A DNA stretch of 58,721 nucleotides from Betaproteobacteria bacterium. Lineage in GTDB: Bacteria; Pseudomonadota; Gammaproteobacteria; Burkholderiales; Thiobacillaceae. Of the stretch, positions 6,109-48,878 are shown piece after piece (the stretch's first letter is position 1; each line of letters begins with the position of its first letter). Position numbers and translations under genes: made by a program. The notes beneath the pieces were generated by a model that worked only from the letters and a program-made list of their open reading frames with translations, did not search any database and was not told the DNA's origin. The DNA is taken from NCBI GenBank assembly GCA_016873935.1, contig VGVT01000014.1, forward strand, positions 1 to 58,721, read 5' to 3'.

Positions 6109-6177
6109 GCATTGCTCCAGAAAATGGATAGAGGGAAACGGGAAATGAGAAAAGGGAAACGTAAGCGCGGGTTGGCT

Positions 6178-7473
<1,296 letters not shown>

Positions 7474-7484
7474 TGCTGAAGGAC

Positions 7485-7571
7485 GGGAAAAGGGAAAAGG
7501 GAAAAGGGAAACGTGGCCGGACGAACGGAACCGCGGGTTTCGCGTTTCCCGTTTCCCGTTTCCCGTTTCCC
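7485..7571. repeat. GGGAAAC heptamer-array hairpin in the ispG/hisS gap
   Basis: Three GGGAAAA heptamers plus one GGGAAAC (7485-7512) face four GTTTCCC heptamers (7544-7571). The 31-base spacer contains CGCGGGTTT, similar to the spacer of the copy at 6133-6211. It fills most of the space between the ispG stop (7592) and the hisS start (7473). Confidence 0.8.
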
Positions 7572-34676: not shown

Positions 34677-34950
34677 CTAGCAGCCTGTCGGACTTTGGAC
34701 GCGGGATGCGTTGGGCGTTTGGACGGATGGATGCAAGGCGCGTCGCGCAGGCCATGGTCGTTCCATGGCCAAGCGACGCAACACAGCAGGCGCCGTCCAA
34801 ACGCCCAACCCGAAGGGCCGGGGCCGCTTTTTGCGCAGGGCGGTGTTGCGGCTCGCTTGTTTGGAATGACCAAACGGCGCTTCGCCGCGCCTTGCCCTGC
34901 GCAAAAATCGGCCCCGGCGCACCCACGGCCAAAGTCCGACAGGCTGCTAG
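34677..34950. mobile_element. 274-bp MITE-like palindromic element with 22-bp terminal inverted repeats
   Basis: Perfect 22-bp terminal inverted repeats occupy 34677-34698 and 34929-34950, starting and ending in CTAG. Inside are two further arms. Arm 1 is a 17-bp perfect inverted repeat (GTTGGGCGTTTGGACGG and complement) capped by GCGTCGC/GCGACGC and GGCCATGG/CCATGGCC. Arm 2 is a 22-bp inverted repeat with one mismatch around TTTTTGCGCAGGGC, capped by TTTGG/CCAAA. The whole would fold as a cloverleaf. No transposase gene. The right end supplies the stop codon of the NqrM-like gene. It is probably a non-autonomous repeat; the CTAG ends may hide a target-site duplication. Confidence 0.75.
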
Positions 34951-35135
34951 CGGGGCGTATCGCAGGAGCCGCCGGAACAGGCGCCGCCACCGCCGCAGGA
35001 TCCGCACTTGCCGGTTTCCCGGAAGGGACCCAGTTCCGGATGGCGGCGGGCGAAGCCTTCATAGATGCGCTGCACGGCGATGCCGAACAGAGCGATGCAG
35101 AGGATCAGACCGATGGTGATCAGGTAGGTGTCCAT
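34947..35135 (-). CDS. Small NqrM-like membrane protein with C-terminal cysteine cluster
   Basis: A 62-aa protein. One N-terminal transmembrane helix (MDTYLITIGLILCIALFGIA, residues 1-20) is followed by a short linker and a cysteine-rich tail, CX2CX5CX4C in KCGSCGGGGACSGGSCD. The size, the M-x-T-x-LIT start, single helix and terminal cysteines resemble NqrM, the factor needed to mature the Fe-S centre of Na+-NQR, although the cysteine spacing differs. It follows rnfA by 4 bp and is the last gene of the rnf operon. Inference: Fe-S maturation factor for RnfAE. The stop codon lies inside the repeat element, so the C-terminus may have been altered. Confidence 0.75.
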   Translation of the reverse strand: MDTYLITIGLILCIALFGIAVQRIYEGFARRHPELGPFRETGKCGSCGGGGACSGGSCDTPR

Positions 35136-35139
35136 GCCC

Positions 35140-35727
35140 CTACTCGCCCGCCCCCAGGCCGGCGAAGCCCATGAAGGCCAGGGACAGCAGGCCCGCCAGC
35201 ATCAGCGACAAGGCGGTGCCCTGCACCACGTTGGGCACGCCGGCCAGGTTCAGGCGCTCGCGCAGGCCGGCCATCAGCAGCAGCGCCAGGGTGAAGCCGG
35301 CGCCGGCGCCGAGGGCGAACACCAGGGCTTGCGCGAGGCTGTATTCGCGCGCGGTCTGGAACAGGGCGACGCCGAGGATGGCGCAGTTGGTGGTGATCAG
35401 CGGCAGGTAGATGCCCAGCGCGCGGAACAGGGCCGGGCTGTACTTCTTCATCACCATTTCCACCAGTTGCACCGCCGAGGCGATGATGACGATGTAGGAG
35501 ATCAGGCGGAGGAATTCCAGCTCGAAGACGGTCACCAGGTAGTTGAGTCCGTAGGCGCACAGGCTGGCCACCAGCATGACGAAGGAAGTGGCGGCGCCCA
35601 TCGGCAGGGCGGTGTTGAGGCGGCCGGAGACGCCGATGAACGGGCACAGGCCGAGGAACATGGCGAGCACGAAGTTGTTGGCCAGCACCGTGGCCAGGAA
35701 GATCTGGGTGAGTGTCGCTTCAGCCAT
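35140..35727 (-). CDS. rnfA: Rnf complex subunit RnfA (RsxA)
   Basis: A 195-aa integral membrane protein with six hydrophobic segments. Contains the conserved cysteine loop NNFVLAMFLGLCPFIGVSG and TNCAILGVALFQTA, which together with RnfE bind an intramembrane [2Fe-2S] cluster. ATG 35727 (MAEATLTQIF) is preferred to the longer reading; length equals E. coli RsxA (193). Its start overlaps the end of rnfE by 8 bp. Confidence 0.97.
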   Translation of the reverse strand: MAEATLTQIFLATVLANNFVLAMFLGLCPFIGVSGRLNTALPMGAATSFVMLVASLCAYGLNYLVTVFELEFLRLISYIVIIASAVQLVEMVMKKYSPALFRALGIYLPLITTNCAILGVALFQTAREYSLAQALVFALGAGAGFTLALLLMAGLRERLNLAGVPNVVQGTALSLMLAGLLSLAFMGFAGLGAGE

Positions 35728-36382
35728 GGCTCGCCTCCCCCGCGGCGACAACGGGTTCCCGCGGCGCCGGCTTGCGGTTGCGCCACCAGTTGAACAGCAG
35801 CAGCCAGGCGCCCAGCACGAAGAAACCGCCGGGCGGCAGCACCATCACCACCCAGGGCTGGAAGTCCGGCCCGAACAGGGGCACGCCGAACAGGGTTCCG
35901 GCGCCCAATATCTCGCGCACCGAACCGAGGGCGAACAGGCCGATGCTGAAACCGATGCCCATGCCCAGGGCGTTGATCAAAGCGCGGCCGGGGGCGAACT
36001 TGGAGGCGTGGGCCTCGGCGCGGCCGAGGATCATGCAGTTCACCACGATGAGCTGGATGAAGGCGCCGAGGGCTTCGTAGAGCTCCAGGCTGATGGCGGC
36101 GATGAGGTAATCGACGATGGTGACGAAGGTGGCGATGATGACGATGTAGGTGGCGATGCGCACTTCCCTGGGCACGATCCTGCGCATCAGCGACACCAGC
36201 AGGGCCGAGCCCAGCAGCACGAAGGTGGTGGCCGCGCCCATGGCCAGGGCATTGACCGCCGACACCGTCACCGCCAGGGCCGGGCACAGGCCCAGCACCA
36301 TCACGAACACCGGGTTCTGCTTCCAGATGCCTTCCAGGAACTCGTCCAGGTTGGTGGGGGGGGTCTGACCGGGGATGACCAT
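35720..36382 (-). CDS. rnfE: Rnf complex subunit RnfE (RsxE)
   Basis: A 220-aa membrane protein, inverted-topology homologue of RnfA. Conserved cysteine loops are QNPVFVMVLGLCPALAVT and IVVNCMILGRAEAHAS. It forms the RnfA-RnfE pair that carries electrons across the membrane. ATG 36382, one base after the rnfG stop. C-terminal tail extends ~20 residues past the last helix. Confidence 0.96.
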   Translation of the reverse strand: MVIPGQTPPTNLDEFLEGIWKQNPVFVMVLGLCPALAVTVSAVNALAMGAATTFVLLGSALLVSLMRRIVPREVRIATYIVIIATFVTIVDYLIAAISLELYEALGAFIQLIVVNCMILGRAEAHASKFAPGRALINALGMGIGFSIGLFALGSVREILGAGTLFGVPLFGPDFQPWVVMVLPPGGFFVLGAWLLLFNWWRNRKPAPREPVVAAGEASHG

Positions 36383-36383
36383 C

Positions 36384-37061
36384 TCATTGCCCTCCTTGCA
36401 ACTTGTCCAGATGCGGCGCCAGCAGGGGCACCAGTTTCTGGGCGCTGTCGTTGATGCCGCGGGCGACGGCGCGGGACGTCACGGTGGCGCCGGAGATGGC
36501 GTCGATCTCCCAGGGGTTCTGCTTGCCGCCGTTCTTCACCACCCGGATCGGGTTGGCCAGGGCGTCGCCGGCGGCGCCGAGGCGCGCATCCAGGGCCTCG
36601 AAATTCTTCAGGAAGGCCTTGTCGAAAATGATCTTGTCGCCGATGCCGGGGGTTTCCCGGTGGCCGACCACGCCGAAGCCGTCGATGGCCTGTTTGGCGG
36701 GATTGTAGGCATACAGCACGCGCACCATGTCGGCGTAGCCCATGGCCGCCGCCTCGGCGGCCAGGCCCCTGAGCTGGCCGGCCTGGTCGTAGGCGGCGTA
36801 GAACTTCACCGCGCCGGCCGGCACGGCGCCGCCCTCGGGCACCAGGCCGGCCTTGCCGACGTGAAACGCCTTCATGCTGTGCGCGCCGGGAATCACCTTG
36901 AACACCGCCCGCTCCAGGGCGACGCGCTTGTTCGCGTTGATGGCCTCCAGGGTGTTCTGGTAGGTCAGCACCAGCAGGATGCCGCATACCGTGGCCACCA
37001 GGCCGAGGGTGCGGATCATGGCGGCGCTGGGGGTGACGGGTTGCAGGGTGGCCTCGCTCAT
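36384..37061 (-). CDS. rnfG: Rnf complex subunit RnfG (FMN-binding)
   Basis: A 225-aa protein with an N-terminal membrane anchor (~15-34) and a periplasmic FMN-binding domain. The covalent flavinylation motif SGATVTS is at 190-196, with Thr193 the expected FMN attachment site (by ApbE). GHRETPGIGDKI is also conserved. ATG 37061 overlaps the rnfD stop (ATGA). No apbE gene is in the window. Confidence 0.97.
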   Translation of the reverse strand: MSEATLQPVTPSAAMIRTLGLVATVCGILLVLTYQNTLEAINANKRVALERAVFKVIPGAHSMKAFHVGKAGLVPEGGAVPAGAVKFYAAYDQAGQLRGLAAEAAAMGYADMVRVLYAYNPAKQAIDGFGVVGHRETPGIGDKIIFDKAFLKNFEALDARLGAAGDALANPIRVVKNGGKQNPWEIDAISGATVTSRAVARGINDSAQKLVPLLAPHLDKLQGGQ

Positions 37062-38107
37062 GCCTTCTTCCCCTTCCCCGCGCCGAACACGCGTGGCTGG
37101 GTGACTTGGTCGATCAGCGGCGTCAGCGCGTTGCCGAGCAGGATGGCGTACATGATGCCCTCGGTGAGTCCGCCGAAGTAGCGGATCATCACCGTGGTGA
37201 CGCCGATGAGAATGCCGTAGATCCACACGCCGAGCGGGGTGACCGGCGAGGTCGCCATGTCGGTGGCCATGAACACCGCGCCCAGCACCAGGCCGCCCGA
37301 CAACAGCACGAAATAGGGCGGCGGAAAGCGAGTCGGATCGAACAGGTGGAACAGCAGGGCGAGCAGCAAGGCGCTGCCCAGGATCGCCGCCGGAATGCGC
37401 CAGTCGAGAAAACGCCGGGCGGCGAGATACAGGCCGCAGACCAGGACCAGCAAGGCGGAGGTCTCGCCGACCGAGGCCGCGGACACGCCGGACAGCATGT
37501 CGCCGAAGTCGGCCACCTGATTCTCGAATTTCCAGCGCGCCAGCGGGGTCGCGCCGGTGAAACCGTCGACCACGTGCCCCTTCACCCAGGCGGTGATGTC
37601 GGGCGGGATCATCAGCGGCGCCGTCAGGGTGGTCGGGACGAACTCGCTGAAGCGGCCGGGAAACTGCGCCGGCACCCAGGTGGTAATGGCCACCGGGAAG
37701 GCCGCCTGGACGAAGGCGCGCCCGACCAGGGCGGGGTTGAAGACGTTGTAGCCGATGCCGCCGAACAGGGCCTTGCCCAGGGCGATGGCGGCGAAACCGG
37801 CGACGACGCCCATCCACAGCGGGAAGGACGGCGGCAGGGTGAGCGCCAGCAGCAGACCGGTGATGGTGGCGGACCAGTCGGACAGGGTGCTGGCGGTAGA
37901 AGACAGGCGGTTGAACAGGCGCTCGGTGAGCAGGCAGGTGGCGACCACCGTCAACATCAGGGCCAGGGCGGAGAGGCCGTATTGCCAGACCGCGAAGGCA
38001 CAGATGGGCAGCAGCGCCAGCACCACGTGGAACATGATGCGTTCGACGCTGGTGCCCTTCACCACATGCGGCGCGGTGCGGAGTTCAAGACGGAGCGGTT
38101 GGGTCAT
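37058..38107 (-). CDS. rnfD: Rnf complex subunit RnfD (FMN-binding membrane subunit)
   Basis: A 349-aa membrane protein with about ten helices. Covalent FMN site in DGFTGATPLARW, with Thr187 as the attachment residue. Other conserved stretches: GGIGYNVFNPALVGRAF and ATDMATSPVTPLGVWIYG. ATG 38107, 18 bp after the rnfC stop. With RnfG it forms the transmembrane flavin path. Confidence 0.97.
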   Translation of the reverse strand: MTQPLRLELRTAPHVVKGTSVERIMFHVVLALLPICAFAVWQYGLSALALMLTVVATCLLTERLFNRLSSTASTLSDWSATITGLLLALTLPPSFPLWMGVVAGFAAIALGKALFGGIGYNVFNPALVGRAFVQAAFPVAITTWVPAQFPGRFSEFVPTTLTAPLMIPPDITAWVKGHVVDGFTGATPLARWKFENQVADFGDMLSGVSAASVGETSALLVLVCGLYLAARRFLDWRIPAAILGSALLLALLFHLFDPTRFPPPYFVLLSGGLVLGAVFMATDMATSPVTPLGVWIYGILIGVTTVMIRYFGGLTEGIMYAILLGNALTPLIDQVTQPRVFGAGKGKKA

Positions 38108-38125
38108 GGCGGTTCGGGCGCGATT

Positions 38126-39547
38126 TCAATCGGGATGCACGGAGGGTTTCCTGCCGTGCGTCGGCGGCGCGCCGAAGTCGAAGCGTTCGCCGCTCTCGTG
38201 CGCGGGAGCCTTGGCGGCCACGCGCTCGCGCAGGATCGCCTTGGCCACCTTGAACTGCTGCACCAGGGGAATGTGGGCGGGGCAGACATAGGTGCAACAG
38301 CCGCACTCGAAGCACTCGCCGATGTGGTGGTCGCTGCTCATCAGGTCGTACTCCCGCCGCGCCGCCAGCATGCCCAGCATGGACGGGTTCAGGCCCATGG
38401 GACAGACGTTCACGCACTCGCCGCACTTGATACAGGGATAAGACCGGCGGGACGCCGGTGCCTCGATGTGGCGTCGGTCGAACACCAGGATGCCGGACAC
38501 CGCCTTGGTCACCGGCACCTCCAGGGAAGCCACGGCCTGGCCCATCATGGGGCCGCCCAGGATGATCTCGCGCTCGGACACGTCTTGCGCGCCGGCCCAC
38601 TCCAGCACCGTGCGCATGGGCGTGCCGATGGGCACCCAGTAATCGCCGGGCTTTTTGATGCCGGGCCCGGTGACCGTCACCACGCGTTCGGTGAGGCCCT
38701 GGCCGGCGGGCAGGATCTGGCCCAACTGGGTCAGGGTGCCGACGTTGTTGACCACCACGCCGACGTGCATGGGCAGCTTGCCGGGCGGCACCTCGATGCC
38801 CAGCAGGGACTTGATCAACATCTTCTCGGCGCCCTGCGGATACTTGGTCGGCACCACTTCGACGCTGATGGCGCCGTCGGCCGGCAGTCGCGCGCGCATG
38901 GCCGCGGCGGCGTCGGGCTTGTTGTCCTCGACGCCGATGATGGCGCGCCCGGCGCCGATGGCGCGCATGGCGATGCGGATGCCCTGCATGAGGTCATCCG
39001 GATGCTCGCGCATCAGCTTGTGGTCACAGGTGAGATAGGGCTCGCACTCGCAACCGTTGACGATCAGCGTGTGGATGGCGAACTCGCCCGGCACGGTCAT
39101 CTTCGCGTGGCTGGGAAAGGCGGCGCCGCCCAGGCCGACCATGCCGGAGTCCTGGATGACCTGCAGCAATTCCTTGGGGCTCAGGGCGTCCAGGTCGCGC
39201 GGCTCGGCCCAGCGGATTTCCTGGGTGGAGGCTTCATAGACCCGGATGACGATGGATTCCACCCAGGGACCGCGCGCGCTGGGCTTCAACTCGATGGATT
39301 CGACGACACCGTCGGCGGGGGCATGGATGGGCACCGACAGAAACCCGTTGGCCCGCGCGATGGGTTGGCCACGCACGACCTCCTCGCCGGCCCGGACGAG
39401 GGGCACCGCCGGCTTGCCGATGTGTTGCGCGAGGGGGAGGATCATGCGCGACGCGAACGGCATCCGACGAATCGGACTGCCGGCAGTGCTCTTGTTCCCG
39501 TCGGGGTGGACCCCGCGGGAGAATGTCTTTTTGCGCCAGGGAAACAT
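38126..39547 (-). CDS. rnfC: Rnf complex subunit RnfC (NADH/FMN, 2x[4Fe-4S])
   Basis: A 473-aa peripheral subunit, the NAD(H) exchange site. N-terminal barrel-sandwich segment (RAGEEVVRGQPIARANGFLS), glycine-rich NADH/FMN loop GLGGAAFPSHAK (138-149), and two [4Fe-4S] motifs: C372/375/378/382 and C412/415/418/422. It lacks the long alanine-rich C-terminal extension of enterobacterial RsxC. ATG 39547. It is separated from nifJ by 109 bp holding a heptamer-array hairpin. Confidence 0.97.
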   Translation of the reverse strand: MFPWRKKTFSRGVHPDGNKSTAGSPIRRMPFASRMILPLAQHIGKPAVPLVRAGEEVVRGQPIARANGFLSVPIHAPADGVVESIELKPSARGPWVESIVIRVYEASTQEIRWAEPRDLDALSPKELLQVIQDSGMVGLGGAAFPSHAKMTVPGEFAIHTLIVNGCECEPYLTCDHKLMREHPDDLMQGIRIAMRAIGAGRAIIGVEDNKPDAAAAMRARLPADGAISVEVVPTKYPQGAEKMLIKSLLGIEVPPGKLPMHVGVVVNNVGTLTQLGQILPAGQGLTERVVTVTGPGIKKPGDYWVPIGTPMRTVLEWAGAQDVSEREIILGGPMMGQAVASLEVPVTKAVSGILVFDRRHIEAPASRRSYPCIKCGECVNVCPMGLNPSMLGMLAARREYDLMSSDHHIGECFECGCCTYVCPAHIPLVQQFKVAKAILRERVAAKAPAHESGERFDFGAPPTHGRKPSVHPD

Positions 39548-39549
39548 TG

Positions 39550-39651
39550 GTTAGCGGGTAGCTGGTAGTGGGTAGTCGGTAGCTTTGATCTTGCGCGCCT
39601 TCGGCGCGGAAACTTCAGGCTACGATCTACTGGCTACCCGCTACCCGCTTC
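39550..39651. repeat. GTAGCNN heptamer-array hairpin (nifJ/rnfC gap)
   Basis: Five left heptamers of the form G(G/T)TAGNN (39550-39584) face five heptamers ending in CTAC or CTTC (39617-39651). Between them lies a mini-hairpin CGCGCC-TTC-GGCGCG. The design is the same as at 4241-4320. It occupies almost the whole gap between the nifJ stop (39657) and the rnfC start (39547). Confidence 0.75.
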
Positions 39652-39656
39652 TCCTG

Positions 39657-42600
39657 TCAGTTGTACTTCGCCGCGCGGGCCATCAGTTTTTCGAGGCCCG
39701 GCTCGTTCATGTTCCAGGGCGTGCCGGGGTGCAGGCAGCCGGCGGTGCACTTCTCGGCGGACTTCACCAGGTCGGCGTACTTGTTGCCCTGGGGATTGAT
39801 GACCACCACCTTCTTGTCGGCGTTGTACTGGAAGGTCTTCGGCGCGAGCTTGGTGCACTCGTCGCAGGCCGTGCATTCCGGCGTGTCCACGTACACCGGC
39901 TCGTAGCCGTCGGCGCTGGCCGCCGGCCGGGCCTGCGCCGGCGCGGCAGCGACAGCGGGCGCATCCACCGGGATGTCGGCACCGAAGCTGGCCAGACTGG
40001 CGCTGATCCTGCCCAGCAACTCGGCGCGGGCCTGCTCGGCGATGGCCTCGGTGTCCACGGCTTCCTTGTTGAGGCCGGCGACGTCGCGCAGCTGCTGCCA
40101 GAACTGCTGGCGCTCCTCGCAGGAGTTGACCAGCTCGGCGGAGACGATGACCCGCATCAGGCGCTGCTTCTTGTCCACCGCCCAGATGTAGGGGAACTTG
40201 CCGTCGCGCTCCTCGGCGGAGAGCTTGAGGAATTCGGCGACGGGCAGCATGTCGTCGTTCCAGGTCTCCGGCGGCGCCTTGCGGAACTGTTTGGCGAAGC
40301 GGCCTTCGGTCAGCGCGAAGTCGGCGAAGGTGAAGGGCAGTTCCATCTTCTGCTCGTCGCCCTGCTCGTCCTTGTAGGTCAGGGTGTAAACCGGCCACTC
40401 GGCATCCAGCTCCGGGTTGCCTTCCAGGCTGACACACTCGCTGAAGGTCGTGCCGGCGTCGGGATCGAAGCGGAACAACGGATAGGCGCGGGATTCCACC
40501 GCCATCTTCGACTGTTGCACCGAGGTATCGTCGCCGACGCCATGTTCCGGCGGGCAGACGGCATAGATGTTGAACAGCGCCGGACGCCGTGAATTCAGGC
40601 CGTCGATGAAGCTCTCGATCAGGTGGGTGGGGCTGGAGATGGCACCCTGCATGACATAGGCGGAGCGGTGCGCCATGCCGATGAGGGAGATTTCCTTGCG
40701 GATCTCCTTCTTGCCGTGGTCCTTCTTGCCGTAGGGCGACATGTCCGCCACCTGGCTGATGAAGCCGGAGGTGCAGGCCTGGCCGCCGGTGTTGGAATAG
40801 ACCTGGGTGTCCACCACGAAGATCTTCACCGGCATCTGGGTCATCAGGGCGCGGGACAGGTTCTGGAAGCCGATGTCGTACATGGCGCCGTCGCCGCCCA
40901 TGGCCACCACCGGCGGGCACAGCCGCCACTCTTCCTCGCTGAACTTGTCCCAGGTGAAGTAGGTGAACTCGGCGTCATGTACCGCCGGGTTGTAGCCGCC
41001 GTTGAGCTCGATTTCGGCCATGCGCACGGCCTTGAAGCCGTCCGCCATCTTCGTCATGTGGCCTTCGAACAGGCCCAGGGCCACGGAGGGCGAGTCCTGG
41101 AACAGGTGCGAGGTCCAGGGGAAGGGATAGGGGCTGTAGGGGAAGGTGGAACCCCACACCGAGGTGCAGCCGGTGGCGTTGACGATGCCCATCTCGGCGC
41201 GGCCGCGGCCGGTGGGGCCTTGCATGTAGCGCCAACGCAGGTCCTTCAGGCGAGCCAGCAACTGCGTCACCCACTTCAGCCATTGCGGGTCGATGGGCTG
41301 CACCTGGGCCCGCTGCTTGAGACTTTCGGAGAGGTTGGCGAGGGTCAGATCCTGGCCCTTGCTCGCCTCCACGGCGGCCAGCACGGCGCCGGTGTTGGAC
41401 AAGTCGACGGTCTCGGTGAGCTTCATGCGCAGATGCTTTTCCAGACCATCGACGAGGCCGTCCAGCTTCTGCACGAAGGCCGCCACCCGCGGCTGCATCA
41501 GCGCGGTGACAGTGGAAGTGAACAGGTGGATGGAGGTCTTCTCGCCGCAGCCCAGGCAGGCGCCGTCGCCGCAGTTCATGGAGTTGTAGTTTTTCTTGTC
41601 GAGCAGCAGGGTTTCCAGGGCGCCGATCTTCTCCTCCAGATCGTCGATGCGGTCGTATTCCCTGGGCGTGGTGGGCAGGTCGAGCCAGAAATTCCAGTCG
41701 GCGCGCAGGGTGGCGATGCTGTCCTCGGTCTGCGTCACCATCTTCAGGGCATCGTCATCGCACACTTCGACGCAGAGCGCGCAGCCCTTGCAGGTATAGG
41801 GATTGACGGTGATGGAGAAGAGGCCGCCGGAGCCCTTGTTCTTCTTTTCCTTGTTGGTCCAGTACGGCTTGGTGGTGGCGAACTGGAAGGCGCCGATCTC
41901 CTTCTCCAGCAGGTGGTATTCCTCCTCCATGGCCGCGTTGCCCTGGTTGGGATCCTCGTGCATGGCGTCCTCGATGGCCCGCTTGAGCAGGGCGCGCACA
42001 TCGAGGCCGTCCTTGTCGAGGGCGCCGCGCAGCTTCTTCTCGATGGTGCGCACGCCCTTGCGCAGGAAGCGGGTGATGCGGCCGCTGGTCTCGATGTTGG
42101 TGACGGCGGTATTGAGCACGTCGCCGACGGTGGAGACCAGGCCGGGAATGGCGGAATCCGGGCACTGCACGTAGCAGTTGCCGCAGGCGGTGCAGTTCTC
42201 GGCGATCCACACCGGATGCTCGAAGCGGATCTGCGTCATGTCCCGATAGACGCCGGTGACGGCGGGCACCAGGGCCAGCCCCATGAAGGGATCGGCCAGG
42301 TTGTCGGAGCCCTTGCCGGAAATGTAGAAGTTGCCGGTCTGTTCCCAGAAGCGATGGATGTCGGCGGCCTTGTCCAGCCGGCCGTCGTTCTCCGGCATGC
42401 GCTTCAGCATGATGGGCAGGGCGGGCATGACCTTGGCGCCCGGCGCCTGGCGCGCGCCCACCTTCTTCACTTCGGCGGGAATCTCGTGGATCTCGGTGTA
42501 ACCGCGCTTCACCACGCGCAGGTTGTCCTGCACCACGCGCTCGCCCTTGCCGCCGAACTTGTCGCGCAACTGGTTCTCGATGGCCTTGAACAGGGATTCC

Positions 42601-44618
42601 TCGGTGAGGCCGGAACGCTGCTGGATGTCGGAAGCGTGGAAGAAGGCCCCCTGGAAGGCGATGCCCTGCATGCGCAATTGCAGGTCCGGGTTGAAGGATT
42701 CCTCGCGGGCGATGGTGAAGGCGTCCAGATAGAACACCTTGATGTCGTTGTCGACGATGGTCTTCTGGATGTGCAGCGGGAACGTGGCCCACAGCGCAGC
42801 GGCGTCCGGCAGGTTGCACTGGATGATGAACACGCCGCCCTTGGACAGGCCCGCCACCGCGTTGGTGTGGCCGAACACGTTGGGGTCGGGCGAGAGCACC
42901 ACGTCGACGTGGGTGTATTCGCAATTGACGCGGATGGGTTCCGGCGCCGCCGACAGGTAGTAGGTAGTGGGCTGACCCTTCTTCTCGGAACCGTACTTGG
43001 GGTTCGCCTTGATGTCCCAGCCCAAGAGCTCGAACAGGGTCATAGCCAGGTTCTTGCCGGTGGTCACCGCGCCCCAGCCGCCCACCGAGTGCATGCGCAC
43101 GGCGATGGCGCCCTTCGGCATCAGGTTGGGGTTCTCGCTGCCGCGCAGGGCCAGTTCCTTGATCCTGGGATAGGCGGCAACCAGTTCCTGCTGGTGGATT
43201 TCCTGCTTCGGGTTCGCCGCCTGGTCGCGCACGAAGTCGATGGAAAGATAGAAGAACTTCTTGTGCGCACCCTTGTCGAGCATGTTTTCGACCGCAGCCA
43301 CCAGGGCTTCCGGTTGCAGGTCGCGCGAGCCCAGGCCATAACAGCCGGAATACAGGCGCGGCATGTCGCCGGCCTTGTAGGCGGCGTAGCCGGGGTAGGA
43401 AGTGGCGTCCATGCCGTTCTCGACGCACTTGGTCACGGTGGAACGCACTTCGCGCATCAGCGGCAGGTCTTCCGACAGCGGCTGGTCGGTGCGTTCCAGC
43501 ACCGCCACGCCCTTCTTGCCCTTCAGCACATGGCCCAGCAGTTCGCCGGGGAAGGGACGGAAGCAAGTGATGTTGACCACGCCCACCTTGAGCTTGCGGT
43601 TCTCGCGCAGCCAGTCGGCGACGGCGGCGGCCTGCACGGTCATGGAGCCCATGCCGAGGATGAGGTAGTCGGCGTCATCGCAGAGATAAGTGTCGACGCG
43701 GCTGTACGTGCGGCCGGTCAGCTCGCCGAACTCGGCCATGCACTGATCCATGATGGCCGGGATGTGCTGGAAGAAATACGGACGCTGGGCGGCGGTGGCC
43801 TGCATGTGCGCGTCCTGGTTGGCGACGCCGCCGGACACCACCGGGCTGTCCACGTCCCAGATCGCCGGCACGCGGCGGCGCTGCGGACCGTAGAGGATTT
43901 CCTGTGCGGGGGTGGGCGTGGGGATGATGTCGTCGGGCTTGCCCAGGTATTCCTCCACCAGTTCCCGCTCCGGCACCAGCACCGGCTCGATCAGGTGGGT
44001 GGTCAAGAAGCCGTCCATGCCCATGATGGCCGGGGTGAGGGACAACTCGGCGGTCTTGCGCGCGATCAGGTTGAGGTCGGCGGCTTCCTGGGCGCTCTTC
44101 GCCATGACCTGGATGAAGCCGGTGTCGTCGACGCAGTGGTAGTCGTCATGGCCGCAGTGCACGTTCAGCGTGGCCTTGGTGATGGCGCGGCAGCCCATGT
44201 TGAGCACGTAGGGCAGGCGCTTGCCGACGGCGCCGTAGAGCGACTCGTGCATGAAGGCCACACCCTGGGCGGAGGAGAAGTTCACAGAGCGCAGGCCGGT
44301 CATTGCCATGCCGGCGGTGACGCCGGCGGCGGCGTGCTCGGATTCCGGCTCCAGGAAGATCAGCGGCCGGCCGGAGATGTTGACGTGGCCGGCGGCGGCG
44401 GCTTCCGACCAGTACTCGCCCATGTTGGTGGAGGGCGTGATGGGATAGGCGCCGGCGGCGTCGGAGGCTTCCCGCTCCACCAGGATGACGGCGGTGTTGC
44501 CGTCGATGGCGTCGCGCACGCCGGGGTACCTGGCGGCCTTGGCGCCGGTCTTGGTGGCGGTGCCCGGCTCGATGAGATGCATGGCGCCTAGGAGCTTGGA
44601 AATGGGGTTCTTGATCAT
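39657..44618 (-). CDS. nifJ: Giant pyruvate:ferredoxin (flavodoxin) oxidoreductase with C-terminal ferredoxin-like domain
   Basis: A 1653-aa protein, ~450 residues longer than usual single-chain PFOR (~1170-1230). It oxidises pyruvate plus CoA to acetyl-CoA and CO2, reducing ferredoxin. In order: alpha domain with AYPITPSTNMGEYW (58-70), gamma/CoA parts, [4Fe-4S] motifs C809/812/815/819 and C943/946/949/953 (124 residues apart because of a charged helical insert), GDGACLGCGEKTS with C1021/C1024, a further ~100-residue insert (1040-1140), NATGCTSVWG (1147-1156), TPP motif GGDGAMYDIG to NTGG (1241-1279) and C1355. After an Ala/Pro linker (1550-1570) comes a ferredoxin-like end with C1582/1585/1588 and C1624/1628. 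ATG 44618, 13 bp after rnfB. Substrate pyruvate is inferred from family. Confidence 0.94.
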   Translation of the reverse strand: MIKNPISKLLGAMHLIEPGTATKTGAKAARYPGVRDAIDGNTAVILVEREASDAAGAYPITPSTNMGEYWSEAAAAGHVNISGRPLIFLEPESEHAAAGVTAGMAMTGLRSVNFSSAQGVAFMHESLYGAVGKRLPYVLNMGCRAITKATLNVHCGHDDYHCVDDTGFIQVMAKSAQEAADLNLIARKTAELSLTPAIMGMDGFLTTHLIEPVLVPERELVEEYLGKPDDIIPTPTPAQEILYGPQRRRVPAIWDVDSPVVSGGVANQDAHMQATAAQRPYFFQHIPAIMDQCMAEFGELTGRTYSRVDTYLCDDADYLILGMGSMTVQAAAVADWLRENRKLKVGVVNITCFRPFPGELLGHVLKGKKGVAVLERTDQPLSEDLPLMREVRSTVTKCVENGMDATSYPGYAAYKAGDMPRLYSGCYGLGSRDLQPEALVAAVENMLDKGAHKKFFYLSIDFVRDQAANPKQEIHQQELVAAYPRIKELALRGSENPNLMPKGAIAVRMHSVGGWGAVTTGKNLAMTLFELLGWDIKANPKYGSEKKGQPTTYYLSAAPEPIRVNCEYTHVDVVLSPDPNVFGHTNAVAGLSKGGVFIIQCNLPDAAALWATFPLHIQKTIVDNDIKVFYLDAFTIAREESFNPDLQLRMQGIAFQGAFFHASDIQQRSGLTEESLFKAIENQLRDKFGGKGERVVQDNLRVVKRGYTEIHEIPAEVKKVGARQAPGAKVMPALPIMLKRMPENDGRLDKAADIHRFWEQTGNFYISGKGSDNLADPFMGLALVPAVTGVYRDMTQIRFEHPVWIAENCTACGNCYVQCPDSAIPGLVSTVGDVLNTAVTNIETSGRITRFLRKGVRTIEKKLRGALDKDGLDVRALLKRAIEDAMHEDPNQGNAAMEEEYHLLEKEIGAFQFATTKPYWTNKEKKNKGSGGLFSITVNPYTCKGCALCVEVCDDDALKMVTQTEDSIATLRADWNFWLDLPTTPREYDRIDDLEEKIGALETLLLDKKNYNSMNCGDGACLGCGEKTSIHLFTSTVTALMQPRVAAFVQKLDGLVDGLEKHLRMKLTETVDLSNTGAVLAAVEASKGQDLTLANLSESLKQRAQVQPIDPQWLKWVTQLLARLKDLRWRYMQGPTGRGRAEMGIVNATGCTSVWGSTFPYSPYPFPWTSHLFQDSPSVALGLFEGHMTKMADGFKAVRMAEIELNGGYNPAVHDAEFTYFTWDKFSEEEWRLCPPVVAMGGDGAMYDIGFQNLSRALMTQMPVKIFVVDTQVYSNTGGQACTSGFISQVADMSPYGKKDHGKKEIRKEISLIGMAHRSAYVMQGAISSPTHLIESFIDGLNSRRPALFNIYAVCPPEHGVGDDTSVQQSKMAVESRAYPLFRFDPDAGTTFSECVSLEGNPELDAEWPVYTLTYKDEQGDEQKMELPFTFADFALTEGRFAKQFRKAPPETWNDDMLPVAEFLKLSAEERDGKFPYIWAVDKKQRLMRVIVSAELVNSCEERQQFWQQLRDVAGLNKEAVDTEAIAEQARAELLGRISASLASFGADIPVDAPAVAAAPAQARPAASADGYEPVYVDTPECTACDECTKLAPKTFQYNADKKVVVINPQGNKYADLVKSAEKCTAGCLHPGTPWNMNEPGLEKLMARAAKYN

Positions 44619-44631
44619 GATGGAAGGCCTC

Positions 44632-45516
44632 TCAAACAACGTTGGCGCGCATCGGCAGCGCCTCTATGCGGATGATCTTCTTGGCTTCGCGGCCTTTCAC
44701 CGCCTGGCCGTCCTGCAGCCAGACCATGGCCCCCGTGGGGCAGCGCTCGATCGCCACGGCAGACGCCAATCGGTTCTTGGCGTAGTCGATCACCGCCAGG
44801 TTGTTGTCCAGGCGGATCAGACCGGGGGCGGCATCCATGACGCATTTGCCGCAGGCGGTGCAGGCCACCTCGCATTGCGCCTCGGCAACATCGCCGTCCG
44901 CCCGGCTCCTGCAGGCCACCCAGAGCTTGTGGCTCACGGGCTGCAAGGAAAACAGGTCCTTGGGGCACACCTCGACGCAATCGCCGCAGGCGGAGCACAG
45001 ATCGGCATCCACGACGGGAAGCCCGAAGGAATTCATGGTGATGGCGTCGAAGTCACACACCGACTCGCAATCGCCCAGGCCCAGGCAGCCCCAGGCGCAG
45101 GCCTTGCCGCCGCCGGACACTGTTGCGGCAGCGCGACAGCTACCGAGTCCCTGGTAGTGGGCACGCACGTAGGCGACATGGCTGCCGCCGGCGCAGGCCA
45201 GGCGCGCCACGCGCTTCTCCACGTCGCCCAGGGACACGCCCAGGAAACTGGCGATGTAGGCATTCATCTCCGGCGCGTTGACCGTGCACTTGCCCGGCAC
45301 GATCTCGCCCGCCACCACCTGCTCGGCGAAGTTGCGGCAGCCGGCGGTGCCGCAGGCGCCGCAGTTGGACTTGGGCAGGTATTCCTCGACCTCGCCGATG
45401 CGTGGATCTTCATAGACATAGAGACGCTTGTTGGCCACCGCCAACAGCCAGGCCAACAGGGTGCCCAGGACGGCCATGAAGGCGCCTGCCACCGCGATGC
45501 CGGACATCATCTCCAT
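44632..45516 (-). CDS. rnfB: Rnf complex subunit RnfB, multi-cluster ferredoxin type
   Basis: A 294-aa subunit that receives electrons from ferredoxin. Membrane anchor at ~6-28, then the RnfB signature cluster C52/C55/C60/C77 (NCGACGTAGC). Many more cysteines follow: C108, 127, 140, 144, 150, 154; C174/177/180/184 (CSACGDCVEVC); C202, 215, 219, 222, 225 and 259, enough for several further [4Fe-4S] clusters. ATG 45516 has AAAGG 8 bp upstream and is preferred to a GTG three codons earlier. First gene of the operon; promoter lies in the dyad-containing gap with the LysR gene. Confidence 0.94.
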   Translation of the reverse strand: MEMMSGIAVAGAFMAVLGTLLAWLLAVANKRLYVYEDPRIGEVEEYLPKSNCGACGTAGCRNFAEQVVAGEIVPGKCTVNAPEMNAYIASFLGVSLGDVEKRVARLACAGGSHVAYVRAHYQGLGSCRAAATVSGGGKACAWGCLGLGDCESVCDFDAITMNSFGLPVVDADLCSACGDCVEVCPKDLFSLQPVSHKLWVACRSRADGDVAEAQCEVACTACGKCVMDAAPGLIRLDNNLAVIDYAKNRLASAVAIERCPTGAMVWLQDGQAVKGREAKKIIRIEALPMRANVV

Positions 45517-45544
45517 CTCGAACACCTTTCTGGACTTGTGTATT

Positions 45545-45576
45545 CAACAATTCGGACCATCAAGTCGAAATTGTTG
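45545..45576. promoter_or_regulatory. 8-bp dyad near rnfB, candidate operator
   Basis: CAACAATT (45545-45552) and AATTGTTG (45569-45576) form a perfect inverted repeat with a 16-base spacer, about 30 bp upstream of the rnfB start. This is the right place for a regulator of the rnf-nifJ operon. Confidence 0.5.
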
Positions 45577-45608
45577 CAGTGCACAGTGTAAAAGTTTCAC
45601 TCCTCAGG

Positions 45609-45642
45609 TCAGCCAATAATTTCAATCTTGCATATTGGCTGA
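45609..45642. promoter_or_regulatory. 10-bp dyad in the rnfB/lysR gap, candidate LysR-type operator
   Basis: TCAGCCAATA (45609-45618) and TATTGGCTGA (45633-45642) are a perfect inverted repeat with a 14-base spacer. The position between divergent regulator and target operon is typical of LysR-type binding sites, which often overlap the regulator's own promoter. Confidence 0.6.
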
Positions 45643-45711
45643 TTTAATGGTGCGATGCACAATACCCAAACTTATCCGCCTGGCCCGGGTATTCCTTTAT
45701 AGGTGACCACC

Positions 45712-46641
45712 ATGCCTTCCGATGCCCCGCTGTACTACAAGAACAACCGGCTCAAGCAACTGCGCGCCTTCTACCAGGTCGTCCGCTGCGGCAGCATTTC
45801 CAAGGCGGCCGACAAGCTGTTCCTCTCGCAACCCTCCGTCTCCCTGCAGATCCAGGCCCTGGAGCGGGAACTCAACGTGGTCCTGTTCGAGCGGCGCGGT
45901 CCCCACCTCAAGCTCACCCCCGAGGGCGAAGTCCTGTTCCAGCTTTCCGAGCCCCTGGTCGACGGCATCGACAAGCTGCAGGAAACCTTCGCCGGCCACT
46001 TCGGCAAGCTGGAATCGGGCGAACTCAAAATCGGCGCCGGCGAATCCACCATCCTCTACATCCTGCCGGAACCGGTGCGCCAGTTCGTCACCGCCTACCC
46101 CAAGGTGCAGCTCAAGATGCACAACGTCACCGGCCGCGACGGCCTGAAGATGTTGCGCTCCGACGAGATCGACTTCGCCGTGGGCTCCATGCTGGAGGTG
46201 CCCGAGGACATCGAATACAAGCCGGTGGTGAACTACGACCCCATGCTCATCACCCCCCTGGGCCACCCCCTGGCGGAAAAATCCGCCGCCGGCGGCGAGA
46301 TCACCCTGGAGGACGTCAGCCAGTACGGTCTCATCCTGCCGCCCAGCCACCTGTCCACCTGGCGCATCGTCAAGTACGTGTTCCAGCAGAACAACCTCAC
46401 CTTCACCGTCACCCTGGAAGCCGGCGGCTGGGAAGTCATCAAGAAATACGTCAGCCTGGGCATGGGCATCTCCATCGTCACCGACATCTGCCTGGAAGGC
46501 ACCGAACCCCTGGTGCGCATCCCCCTCACCCAGTACTTCCCCCAGCGCAGCTACGGCCTGGTGTTGAGAAAGGGCCGCTTCCTCTCGCCCCAGGCGAGAA
46601 GGTTCATGGAGATCATGGAAGGGGTGTTCGCGGCGAATTGA
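45712..46641 (+). CDS. LysR-type transcriptional regulator (CysB-like)
   Basis: A 309-aa protein. N-terminal winged helix-turn-helix (~10-70, GSISKAADKLFLSQPSVSLQ, LKLTPEGEVL) and a periplasmic-binding-protein-like effector domain (~100-300). ATG 45712 has AGGTGA six bases upstream and is preferred to the GTG at 45703. Divergent from the rnfB-nifJ-rnf operon with 195 bp between starts and two perfect dyads in that space, so it most likely controls that operon and itself. Effector unknown; CysB-type members sense O-acetylserine or small acids. Confidence 0.9.
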   Translation: MPSDAPLYYKNNRLKQLRAFYQVVRCGSISKAADKLFLSQPSVSLQIQALERELNVVLFERRGPHLKLTPEGEVLFQLSEPLVDGIDKLQETFAGHFGKLESGELKIGAGESTILYILPEPVRQFVTAYPKVQLKMHNVTGRDGLKMLRSDEIDFAVGSMLEVPEDIEYKPVVNYDPMLITPLGHPLAEKSAAGGEITLEDVSQYGLILPPSHLSTWRIVKYVFQQNNLTFTVTLEAGGWEVIKKYVSLGMGISIVTDICLEGTEPLVRIPLTQYFPQRSYGLVLRKGRFLSPQARRFMEIMEGVFAAN

Positions 46642-46668: not shown

Positions 46669-48573
46669 TCATGCCGCCCGGGCCGACAACGCCCTGACGA
46701 TAAAATCCCGCGCCACGCGCGGCTTCGGCACGCGCATATCGAACCAGCCGCGCACGTCGTCGTCGAGGCCGAGGCCGTGCATGTAGTTGTACAGCGCCTT
46801 GTTGAGGGCGACGCCAAGGCGGTCGTGATCGACGCCGGCGGGGTCGATGAAGCCGACGTCGTTGCGCGCGAAACTCACCGGCGGCAACGGTTTCAGTATC
46901 ACGCCGTAGTCCTCCGGGCGCAGACCCACCGGCGCATGCACGGTGCAGGCGAAGCGATGGAAGAAACCGGACTGGATGCAGCCGGCGGCGAACAACTGGC
47001 GCACGTATTCGAGCGCGTCGACGGTGTCCTGCACGGTCTGCGTCGGGAAGCCGTACATCAGGTAGGCGTGCACCAGGATGCCGGCTTCGGCGAAGGCATG
47101 GGTGACGCGCGCCACCTGCGGCACCGAGACACCCTTTTGCATCAATTTCAGCAGGCGGTCTGAAGCCACTTCGAGACCGCCGGACACCGCGATGCAGCCG
47201 CTGTCGGCGAGTTGCCGGCAGAGTTGCGGGGTGAAGGATTTCTCGAAGCGGATGTTGCCCCACCAGGATATCGCCCGGTTGCGGCGGCGGAGTTCCTCGG
47301 CCAGCGCCTTCAGCACCTTGGGCGGCGCGGCTTCGTCGACGAAGTGAAAACCGGTCTGGCCGGTCTCCGCGATGACCGCCTCGATGCGGTCGGCCAGCAA
47401 TTCGGCGCCGGTGGCATCGTAGCGCGCGATGTAATCCAGGCTGACGTCGCAGAAGCTGCATTTCTTCCAGTAGCAGCCGTGCGCCACGGTCAGCTTGTTC
47501 CAGCGCGCGTCCGACCAGAGCCGGTGCATCGGGTTGAGCATATCCAGGATCGCCAGGTAGCGGTCCAGCGGCAGGCCGTCCCAGGTCGGCGTGCCGACCT
47601 CGGCGAAGGGGATGTCCGCCTCGCCGCAATCGAAATAACGCACAGCGCCGCCCTCGCGCAGGAAGGTGCGCACCAGTCGATCCGCCCCCCGCTCGCCGCG
47701 CAGGTGTGCGAGCAGCGCCAGCAACGGGCGCTCGCCGTCATCCAGGGTGACGTAGTCGAAATAATCGAACACGCGCGCTTCCTTGAGTTCGCGCAGCTCG
47801 GTGTTGACGAAGCCGCCGCCGAGCACGGTGCGGATGTGGGGGTGCGCGGCCTTGATCGCCTGTGCGACGCGGAAGGCGGCATAGACGTTGCCGGGGAAGG
47901 GCGCTGACACCAGCACCAGATCCGGCGCGTGCCGCGCGATGGCCTCCAGGGTCAGCTCGCCCAGGGTGGTGTCGACCAGGTTGGGCGGCGCCGCCAGGGC
48001 CGCGGCGAGCGGTTCGAAACTGGCCTGGCTTTGCGCCAGCGACTCGGCATAGCGCACGAATTCGAAACGCGCGTCGACCGCCTCGCGCAGCACGTCGGCA
48101 AGATCGTTGAGGTACAGCGTCGCCAGATGCCGGGCGCGGTCCTGCACGCCGAGCGCGCCGAACGCCCAGGCCAGCGGATCGCCGCCGTCCGGGTCGATGT
48201 AGACGTCGAGCGCGGCGAAGCGCGGCCCCTCCGGCAGGAAATCACGCCGCGCGATGCGATGCGCGAGGCTGGGATCGCGCCCCTGCAGGAAGGCGACGAC
48301 GGCGTCGATGCTGGCGAGATACCTCGGGAAATGCTCGGCGAAGGCGACGAGCACCGGCGCCCGCCGCGCCGGCGGGATGACCTCGACGCGGGCGCGGATC
48401 GCGCGCAGCCCGTCCGGCGTGAACAAGCGCAGCACCAGGGCCAGGGCAAGATCTTCCTGCGTGGCGGCGACGCCGCGCGAACGCAGGAAGCCGGTGAGAT
48501 AAGCGGTCGACGGGTAAGGCGTGTTGAGTTGCGTCATCGGCGGGATGACGGAAAGGACGCCACACCTTTGCAT
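46669..48573 (-). CDS. B12-binding-domain radical SAM protein
   Basis: A 634-aa protein of the cobalamin-binding radical SAM type. The N-terminal part (~1-330) resembles a B12-binding region (PDLVLVSAPFPGNVYAAFRV, LGGGFVNTELRELK). The radical SAM core has C-x3-C-x2-C in GCYWKKCSFCDVS, with VSGGLEVASDRLLKLMQKG and AYLMYGFPTQTVQDT downstream. Members methylate or rearrange inert carbons, but no specific reaction can be assigned. ATG 48573 (a TTG two codons earlier is possible). Its start overlaps the end of the DUF3301 gene region. Confidence 0.88.
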   Translation of the reverse strand: MQRCGVLSVIPPMTQLNTPYPSTAYLTGFLRSRGVAATQEDLALALVLRLFTPDGLRAIRARVEVIPPARRAPVLVAFAEHFPRYLASIDAVVAFLQGRDPSLAHRIARRDFLPEGPRFAALDVYIDPDGGDPLAWAFGALGVQDRARHLATLYLNDLADVLREAVDARFEFVRYAESLAQSQASFEPLAAALAAPPNLVDTTLGELTLEAIARHAPDLVLVSAPFPGNVYAAFRVAQAIKAAHPHIRTVLGGGFVNTELRELKEARVFDYFDYVTLDDGERPLLALLAHLRGERGADRLVRTFLREGGAVRYFDCGEADIPFAEVGTPTWDGLPLDRYLAILDMLNPMHRLWSDARWNKLTVAHGCYWKKCSFCDVSLDYIARYDATGAELLADRIEAVIAETGQTGFHFVDEAAPPKVLKALAEELRRRNRAISWWGNIRFEKSFTPQLCRQLADSGCIAVSGGLEVASDRLLKLMQKGVSVPQVARVTHAFAEAGILVHAYLMYGFPTQTVQDTVDALEYVRQLFAAGCIQSGFFHRFACTVHAPVGLRPEDYGVILKPLPPVSFARNDVGFIDPAGVDHDRLGVALNKALYNYMHGLGLDDDVRGWFDMRVPKPRVARDFIVRALSARAA

Positions 48574-48575
48574 AC

Positions 48576-48878
48576 TCAACTGAGCAAATCGGCCGACAGG
48601 AGCTTATTCCCCAGCAGGTACACCCGCCCCGCCTGGCGGTCGTCGCCGACGCTGGAATATTCGAAGCTGTATTCCCGGTAGACGCGGGCGCGCATGTCGG
48701 GGTCGCGGCGCAGGGCCATCTTGCGCAGGGCGACGGTGTCGTCGAGGAACTGCACGCCAGCCTGTTCGCAGACGCGGCGGGCGGCTTGCAGGGCGAGTTC
48801 GCACTTTTGCAGGCCGTCCCACCAGAAGGCGCCGAGGCCGGCCAGGCCGGCGAGCAGCAGCCCCTCGGTCGGGTTCAT
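48576..48878 (-). CDS. DUF3301 family small membrane protein
   Basis: A 100-aa protein. One N-terminal hydrophobic segment (GLLLAGLAGLGAFWWDGLQ) is followed by a conserved region with LALQAARRVCEQAGVQFLDD and MRARVYREYSFEYSSVGDDR, typical of DUF3301, whose function is unknown. ATG 48878 overlaps the rhlE stop by one base (TAATG), indicating coupling. Confidence 0.8.
   Translation of the reverse strand: MNPTEGLLLAGLAGLGAFWWDGLQKCELALQAARRVCEQAGVQFLDDTVALRKMALRRDPDMRARVYREYSFEYSSVGDDRQAGRVYLLGNKLLSADLLS

Follow-up and report, generated by a model that had tools for sequence, protein, structure and literature searches.

The Rnf complex is usually drawn as an ion pump fed by a free ferredoxin pool. 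In the rnf2 cluster of the Solemya velum gill symbiont, a gene for pyruvate:ferredoxin oxidoreductase (PFOR) is located between rnfB2 and rnfC2, and pyruvate was suggested as the electron donor in the available excerpts of that report (PMC4287430). Genes for Rnf and for 2-oxoacid oxidoreductases are listed without this arrangement in the accessible portions of PMC6593406, PMC4853749 and PMC4914600. The window analysed here, a stretch of 58,721 nucleotides comprising the entire contig VGVT01000014.1 of a Thiobacillaceae genome (Betaproteobacteria bacterium, GenBank assembly GCA_016873935.1; 2.70 Mb in 121 contigs), contains an rnf operon interrupted between rnfB and rnfC by the gene for a giant single-chain 2-oxoacid oxidoreductase. 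The same rnfB-PFOR-rnfC order was found in S. velum symbiont strain WH (locus L199; loci, genomes and contigs are given below as L, G and C numbers). The position of PFOR inside rnf was already known from the symbiont, as far as the excerpts of PMC4287430 go, and what is new is a sister operon in which the corresponding protein is a dead scaffold. Placement of the giant gene within the rnf gene set suggests that carbon chemistry is plugged directly into the pump, and the operon is probably that of a dedicated Rnf ion pump, in which a pyruvate-type oxidoreductase of its own would serve the low-potential side through a tethered ferredoxin, with a mainly reductive use. Gene content, conservation, retention of residues and clusters, a unique operator-like site and the dead-scaffold sister operon were read directly from the sequences.

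Every gene named in the original prediction was found in the order and on the strand claimed: rnfB, PFOR, rnfC, rnfD, rnfG, rnfE, rnfA and a small open reading frame (ORF) on the minus strand, with a divergent LysR-type gene. Rnf subunits A, B, C, D, E and G are all encoded in this one cluster. Four of them exceed the curated cut-offs, namely RnfC (38126-39547, 473 aa; TIGR01945, 501.5 bits against 246), RnfD (37058-38107, 349 aa; TIGR01946, 291.5 against 207), RnfE (35720-36382, 220 aa; TIGR01948, 220 against 213.4) and RnfA (35140-35751, 203 aa from TTG, with an ATG 24 bases downstream at 35727; TIGR01943, 238.7 against 229.3). RnfB (44632-45525, 297 aa; TIGR01944, 67.7 against 68.7), a long form with an N-terminal FeS domain and several 4Fe-4S motifs (PF04060, Fer4), and the FMN-binding RnfG (36384-37061, 225 aa; PF04205; TIGR01947, 89 against 102) fall slightly under theirs. 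The short gaps that had been claimed were present at rnfB/PFOR (13 bases), rnfC/rnfD (18), rnfG/rnfE (1) and rnfA/small ORF (4) but not at PFOR/rnfC (109). Of the repeated ATGA overlaps, one was seen, the 4-base rnfD/rnfG junction (37058-37061), and it is the sole junction of that type; the overlap of rnfE and rnfA is 8 or 32 bases long, according to which start codon is taken.

The giant (39657-44618, minus strand; 1653 aa from the ATG at 44618) belongs to the 2-oxoacid:ferredoxin oxidoreductase superfamily, as POR_N, PFOR_II, POR and TPP_enzyme_C all scored over their Pfam cut-offs. The name nifJ given to it earlier was not borne out. It scored 405.8 bits against TIGR02176, the NifJ/PFOR equivalog with a cut-off of 911.35, whereas the canonical PFOR of the same genome (contig C70) scored 1650 bits; the two proteins are about 27-31% identical. 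Unlike NifJ-type PFOR, the giant gave no match to the EKR domain in the Pfam profile search. Residues were checked in 17 aligned sequences, the window's giant and 16 homologues at 55-93% identity to it (2 is to be added to residue numbers for ATG-based numbering). T59, E92, R142, the thiamine GDG motif and N1274 were invariant in 17/17 sequences, as were the four Cys of the proximal cluster, the eight Cys of two ferredoxin-type clusters and the four Cys of the C-terminal ferredoxin. T59, E92, R142 and N1274 align with T31, E64, R114 and N996 of Desulfovibrio africanus PFOR, which we take to be the pyruvate-contacting residues of that enzyme. The giant has the pyruvate-specific active site by this measure, and its substrate is predicted accordingly. 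The single [4Fe-4S] ferredoxin domain at the C-terminus (39657-39893, minus strand; Fer4_13) was examined in an AlphaFold model that covered the C-terminal half (907 aa, from 17 sequences), which was used only for this domain and the linker before it; the last 67 residues gave block means of 80-88 in predicted local distance difference test (pLDDT) score and the linker 28-45. No relative of the giant was found in the viral contigs searched. A full-length relative of 1678 aa, in which the checked catalytic motifs are present (35-39% identity, family f229), lies at 4651-9687 of L214.

The rnfB-PFOR-rnfC order was compared in three overlapping sets of loci whose counts are not additive (L131, L132, L163, L187, L191 and L197 are contigs of G017, G030, G012, G300, G161 and G011). 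Among 80 named loci, the best 80 of at least 527 relatives, rnfB was directly upstream of the giant in 77 and rnfC directly downstream in 68; in the 12 without downstream rnfC, at most 263 bases of contig remain. The three without adjacent upstream rnfB are L204, where 70 bases of contig remain, L190 and L200. Regions taken from relatives had rnfB adjacent upstream in 20/20 and rnfC downstream in 19/20. The exception, L039 of G006, ends 425 bases past the giant, and the matching rnfC of G006 lies on another contig, 211 bases short of its end, both contigs terminating at the PFOR-rnfC junction. Of the 369 genomes in the class sample, 30 matched the giant at E <= 1e-90 and 21 were read as type I (rows at >=55% identity, fragments included); the remaining nine comprised three with the sister type only, five that look split and one unplaced (G256, 35%). 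Thirteen type I regions fetched from these 21 genomes had rnfB upstream in 12 and rnfC downstream in 12, the exceptions being L093, with rnfB behind rnfA, and L087, with a contig edge before rnfC. In the phylum sample, 43/398 genomes matched, three of them type I. Among the matches listed, the closest named loci by PFOR identity were Thiobacillus sp. UBA3361, Hydrogenophilus sp. and a Thiobacillaceae bacterium, from which the window's own or very near records are perhaps excluded. Listed carriers included Rhodocyclus tenuis, Sulfurisoma, Rubrivivax gelatinosus, Sedimenticola, Thiocapsa, Allochromatium, Ectothiorhodospira, Halorhodospira and the Solemya velum symbiont, together with metagenome-assembled genomes labelled Acidobacteria, Verrucomicrobia, Calditrichaeota and Hydrogenedentota, labels of a kind that can be wrong. 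The predicted co-occurrence of this gene order across genomes was thus upheld over many families and several labelled phyla, and a one-off arrangement or assembly artefact is ruled out because the order recurs in relatives.

The module RnfC was found to follow the giant. When 39 genomes were searched for RnfC, it adjoined the giant in 27 of the 29 that carry one, and the contigs of the other two (G002 and G006) break at that point. The 10 genomes without the giant had only RnfC copies of 532-579 bits, or none (G013, G036), and complete module copies score 463-509 bits, a different score class. The giant and the module RnfC are gained and lost as a unit. This joint gain and loss and the conserved order together give good support to the earlier idea of a dedicated module. 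PFOR and Rnf-subunit distances correlated with r 0.80-0.88 (72 loci, computed without a housekeeping control). The window's genome contains another rnf cluster as well, arranged rnfABCDGE, and no PFOR match was present in the 9.2 kb read around it. In L035, L037, L040 and L042 a further conserved frame, about 200 aa long (shared N-terminal motif LTREF), lies between rnfC and rnfD; it is absent from the window.

More distant, sister (type II) relatives of the giant, at 27-30% identity, were found in six class-sample genomes, the loci being the six low-identity long rows of that search. All six (L097, L098, L099, L101, L212, and L213 with L223) have the order korA-korB-ext-rnfB-dead giant-rnfC-D-G-E-A; korA was verified upstream of korB in the G227 locus, and in L101 korA and ext are each split into two frames. 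The giant of these operons lacks the equivalents of T31, E64 and N996, the complete GDG motif and every one of the four proximal-cluster Cys (6/6), but it retains all eight Cys of the two ferredoxin-type clusters (6/6) and the R114 equivalent in 5/6. The ext protein is homologous to the C-terminal 60% of the giant and bears the ferredoxin tail, with no GDG motif (6/6) and at most one proximal-cluster Cys; its ferredoxin Cys are complete in 5/6, and in L101 that domain is in a separate downstream frame. KorA kept YPITP in the 5/5 scanned and KorB kept GDG in 6/6, and KorAB presumably acts on 2-oxoglutarate, as assumed from its family. Both operon types occur together in G409, G278 and G227. Since a dead scaffold with its electron-transfer clusters kept remains between rnfB and rnfC, the scaffold would wire 2-oxoacid chemistry to Rnf, and the sister operon argues for the wiring role better than any other evidence here. 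We tentatively extend this to a modular 2-oxoacid:NAD+ ion pump, possible rather than probable, in which a PFOR-derived tethered-ferredoxin scaffold would replace free ferredoxin within a membrane supercomplex and the head would be exchanged, pyruvate-type in the window and KorAB 2-oxoglutarate-type in the sister operon; the PFOR originally present there would have turned into a dead electron-conducting adaptor. In Endoriftia, H2S limitation is accompanied by a joint fall of korAB(3), encoding a dimeric 2-oxoglutarate oxidoreductase (OGOR), and a 'PFOR-like' gene, according to the available excerpts of PMC11636981, which give no gene order. Such a joint fall is what the sister operon would predict if the Endoriftia genes belong to it.

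We infer docking, electron path, ion coupling, direction and regulation as follows. Pyruvate and CoA would be interconverted with acetyl-CoA and CO2 at the thiamine diphosphate of the giant, and electrons would pass from the proximal cluster through the two ferredoxin-type [4Fe-4S] clusters to the C-terminal tethered ferredoxin. This ferredoxin would swing on its linker to RnfB; the membrane subunits would then relay the electrons to RnfC and on to NAD+, with ion transport coupled to this flow. The reaction can run either way. In the main, reductive use, Rnf would spend the ion gradient to raise electrons from NADH to the tethered ferredoxin for pyruvate synthesis, and the oxidative direction would operate under anoxia.

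The gene order could also be read as co-location without physical coupling, the operon only co-regulating a ferredoxin-linked PFOR with Rnf while free ferredoxin carries the electrons. RnfB does retain ferredoxin-like domains, and a hairpin between the two halves of the operon would allow them to be made in unequal amounts, but the enzyme already carries a fused ferredoxin, and the dead PFOR scaffold holds its place between rnfB and rnfC with two electron-transfer clusters intact in 6/6 sister operons; we consider co-location alone unlikely. The proposal of a wired and mainly reductive pump has to face several unfavourable observations. The fused ferredoxin could reduce soluble carriers. The AlphaFold model has a mean pLDDT of 59.9 and is silent on docking, and 4/6 ext proteins still have an asparagine aligned with N996. 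In L200 no rnfB was found in 10 kb upstream, in L190 the 472 bases upstream are without rnfB, and in L093 rnfB was relocated downstream of rnfA. The 109-base PFOR-rnfC gap (39548-39656, minus strand) is filled by a very stable hairpin (-56.9 kcal/mol, z = -6.0), so that a single uniform transcript cannot be assumed, and the hairpin may set the ratio of the soluble to the membrane half through unequal expression. A canonical PFOR is present alongside the giant in the window's genome. As to direction, the RuBisCO association used below is confounded by ancestry and two of its 18 matches are weak (G112, 1.3e-70; G378, 7.6e-66) and possibly RuBisCO-like, nifH is also over-represented among carriers, and the accessible portions of PMC11636981 mark the direction of the PFOR, OGOR and RNF isoforms of Endoriftia as unknown.

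That the enzyme stands in for pyruvate dehydrogenase (PDH) is not supported here: PDH E1 was found in the window's genome, likewise the canonical PFOR, and absence of PDH was rejected. RuBisCO is present as well, and at E <= 1e-40 it matched in 18/21 type I genomes against 158/348 others (Fisher p 4e-4; ancestry uncontrolled). Split two-gene PFOR-like enzymes were found in L102, L103 and L216. In L216 the split genes precede Fe-S, FAD, sucC-, sucD-, korA- and korB-like genes and in L215 sucC- and korA-like genes occur (the suc and kor assignments were made by eye on the N-termini), apparently a reductive tricarboxylic acid (TCA) cluster of another class of the phylum. No rnf was detected by tblastn in the L100, L102 and L103 stretches. 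On the strength of the RuBisCO skew and the split relatives beside suc/kor-like genes, with PDH also present, we lean towards reductive carboxylation, pyruvate synthesis being the favoured direction in mostly RuBisCO-bearing hosts. The opposite assignment would have pyruvate oxidized under anoxia, with Rnf turning the reduced ferredoxin into NADH and an ion gradient. Ferredoxin to NADH is the energetically downhill direction for Rnf, and with other needs perhaps already covered by the canonical PFOR and PDH, there would be room for an isoform used under anoxia. Pyruvate was also the electron donor suggested for rnf2 in the excerpts of PMC4287430. This catabolic use is set against the 18/21 skew to RuBisCO-bearing genomes and the position of the split relatives of L215 and L216 beside apparent reductive TCA genes, and it strikes us as somewhat doubtful. 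Rnf first became known from nitrogen fixation in Rhodobacter, and the module might make low-potential electrons for nitrogenase; nifH (E <= 1e-100) matched in 8/21 type I genomes against 23/348 others (p 9e-5; ancestry uncontrolled), but 13/21 carriers, including the window's genome, gave no match at that threshold. Such nifH-free carriers weaken nitrogenase supply as a general role, which we hold to be very improbable.

The LysR-type gene (45703-46641, plus strand; start GTG 45703 or ATG 45712) encodes HTH_1 and LysR_substrate domains and is divergent from rnfB. The claim that the operon has its own divergent regulator stood with respect to these domains, the orientation and an operator-like element unique in the genome, and its 'CysB-like' part did not: the protein scored 151.9/402 and 141.5/436 bits against the CysB-family models PRK12684 and CysB, outside their membership, and it stayed short of the cut-off of every one of the 25 NCBIfam LysR models shown. 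A divergent LysR orthologue within 700 bases of rnfB was present in 47/114 type I loci scanned (an overlapping set); many loci are without one, which limits the idea of a dedicated regulator. From these 47 lysR-rnfB regions 7 identical copies were dropped, leaving 40 distinct ones, some from close relatives. No common perfect inverted repeat was found in the first palindrome scan of these regions, and a looser half-site scan yielded the element ATTGAAATWATTGG, which is matched at >=12/14 positions in 37/40 distinct regions against 0.2 expected, a count that is not independent as the element was picked after viewing the same regions. The genome-wide result is free of that weakness: with at most one mismatch, ATTGAAATWATTGG has a single site in the window's genome, at 45613-45626, where it reads ATTGAAATTATTGG (minus strand) in the lysR-rnfB intergenic region and shares bases with one arm of an inverted repeat, AGCCAATA-N14-TATTGGCT. 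Perfect copies of that repeat are confined to the window and L036, with a near-perfect one in L040. The uniqueness of the element fits a regulator dedicated to this promoter, with binding predicted, and the divergent LysR probably regulates mainly this promoter.

Of the PFOR-rnfC gaps of 40-420 bases, 26/67 fold into hairpins with z < -4, compared with 14/194 gaps at the five remaining junctions; between many of the species the hairpin sequences seem unrelated. Heptad (7-base) repeat arrays occur at 6133-6212, 7485-7571 and, within the PFOR-rnfC gap, 39552-39583; their heptamers differ, and the first two arrays are inverted pairs. The PFOR-rnfC hairpin of the window is built of heptad repeats, and similar hairpins with other heptamers occur in relatives.

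At the far end of the operon, the small ORF (34947-35135, minus strand) encodes a 62-aa protein with one hydrophobic stretch and a Cys-rich tail (HPELGPFR...CGSC...C...C). The label 'NqrM-like' found no backing, as the protein gave no Pfam or NCBIfam match at E <= 0.001; Pfam presumably holds an NqrM model. A similar small ORF follows rnfA in 67/82 (overlapping) loci by by-eye judgement, 13 loci giving none and two picks looking spurious. Just 3' of the operon is a 270-base element (34679-34948) resembling a miniature inverted-repeat transposable element, with a 20-base terminal inverted repeat (AGCAGCCTGTCGGACTTTGG). The same ends also flank a stretch directly 5' of the canonical PFOR on C70 (7383-7653) and are present on C54 and C2. 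Adjoining the LysR gene, 46669-48579 encodes a B12-binding radical S-adenosylmethionine (SAM) protein whose best match, under the cut-off, is rSAM_ocin_1, a C-methyltransferase for maturation of ribosomally synthesized and post-translationally modified peptides (RiPPs). A protein with a Schlafen group 3 helicase domain is encoded near the contig end (570-2531).

If the enzyme is wired directly to Rnf, sulfur oxidizers, purple bacteria and animal symbionts would couple the oxidation of carbon or the fixation of CO2 to the membrane gradient with no free ferredoxin pool in between. Such wiring, if true, would help to explain how respiring or phototrophic Calvin-cycle bacteria afford low-potential carboxylations, and the sister operon would be a case of a metabolic enzyme retired from catalysis and retained as a wire. 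A search of the open-licence PMC literature, as far as its excerpts extend, turned up no account of the ferredoxin fusion, of how widely the order is conserved or of the dead-scaffold operon, and S. velum rnf2 is treated in the excerpts of PMC4287430 without mention of a ferredoxin fused to the enzyme, of the operon's spread or of its dead-scaffold sister. The window operon has all six subunits in common with the usual Rnf complex, but it differs from Rnf clusters in its order, rnfBCDGEA, and in being interrupted by an oxidoreductase gene. The split enzyme of L216 has halves 40% and 43% identical to the giant, but it consists of two polypeptides and is without the ferredoxin tail. With single-chain PFOR/NifJ (TIGR02176; PDB 1b0p/7plm, 6cin) the giant shares the domain order and the sites of thiamine, the proximal cluster and the two ferredoxin-type clusters, whereas it is about 450 residues longer, with inserts between the clusters, an extra C-terminal ferredoxin and a gene located inside rnf.

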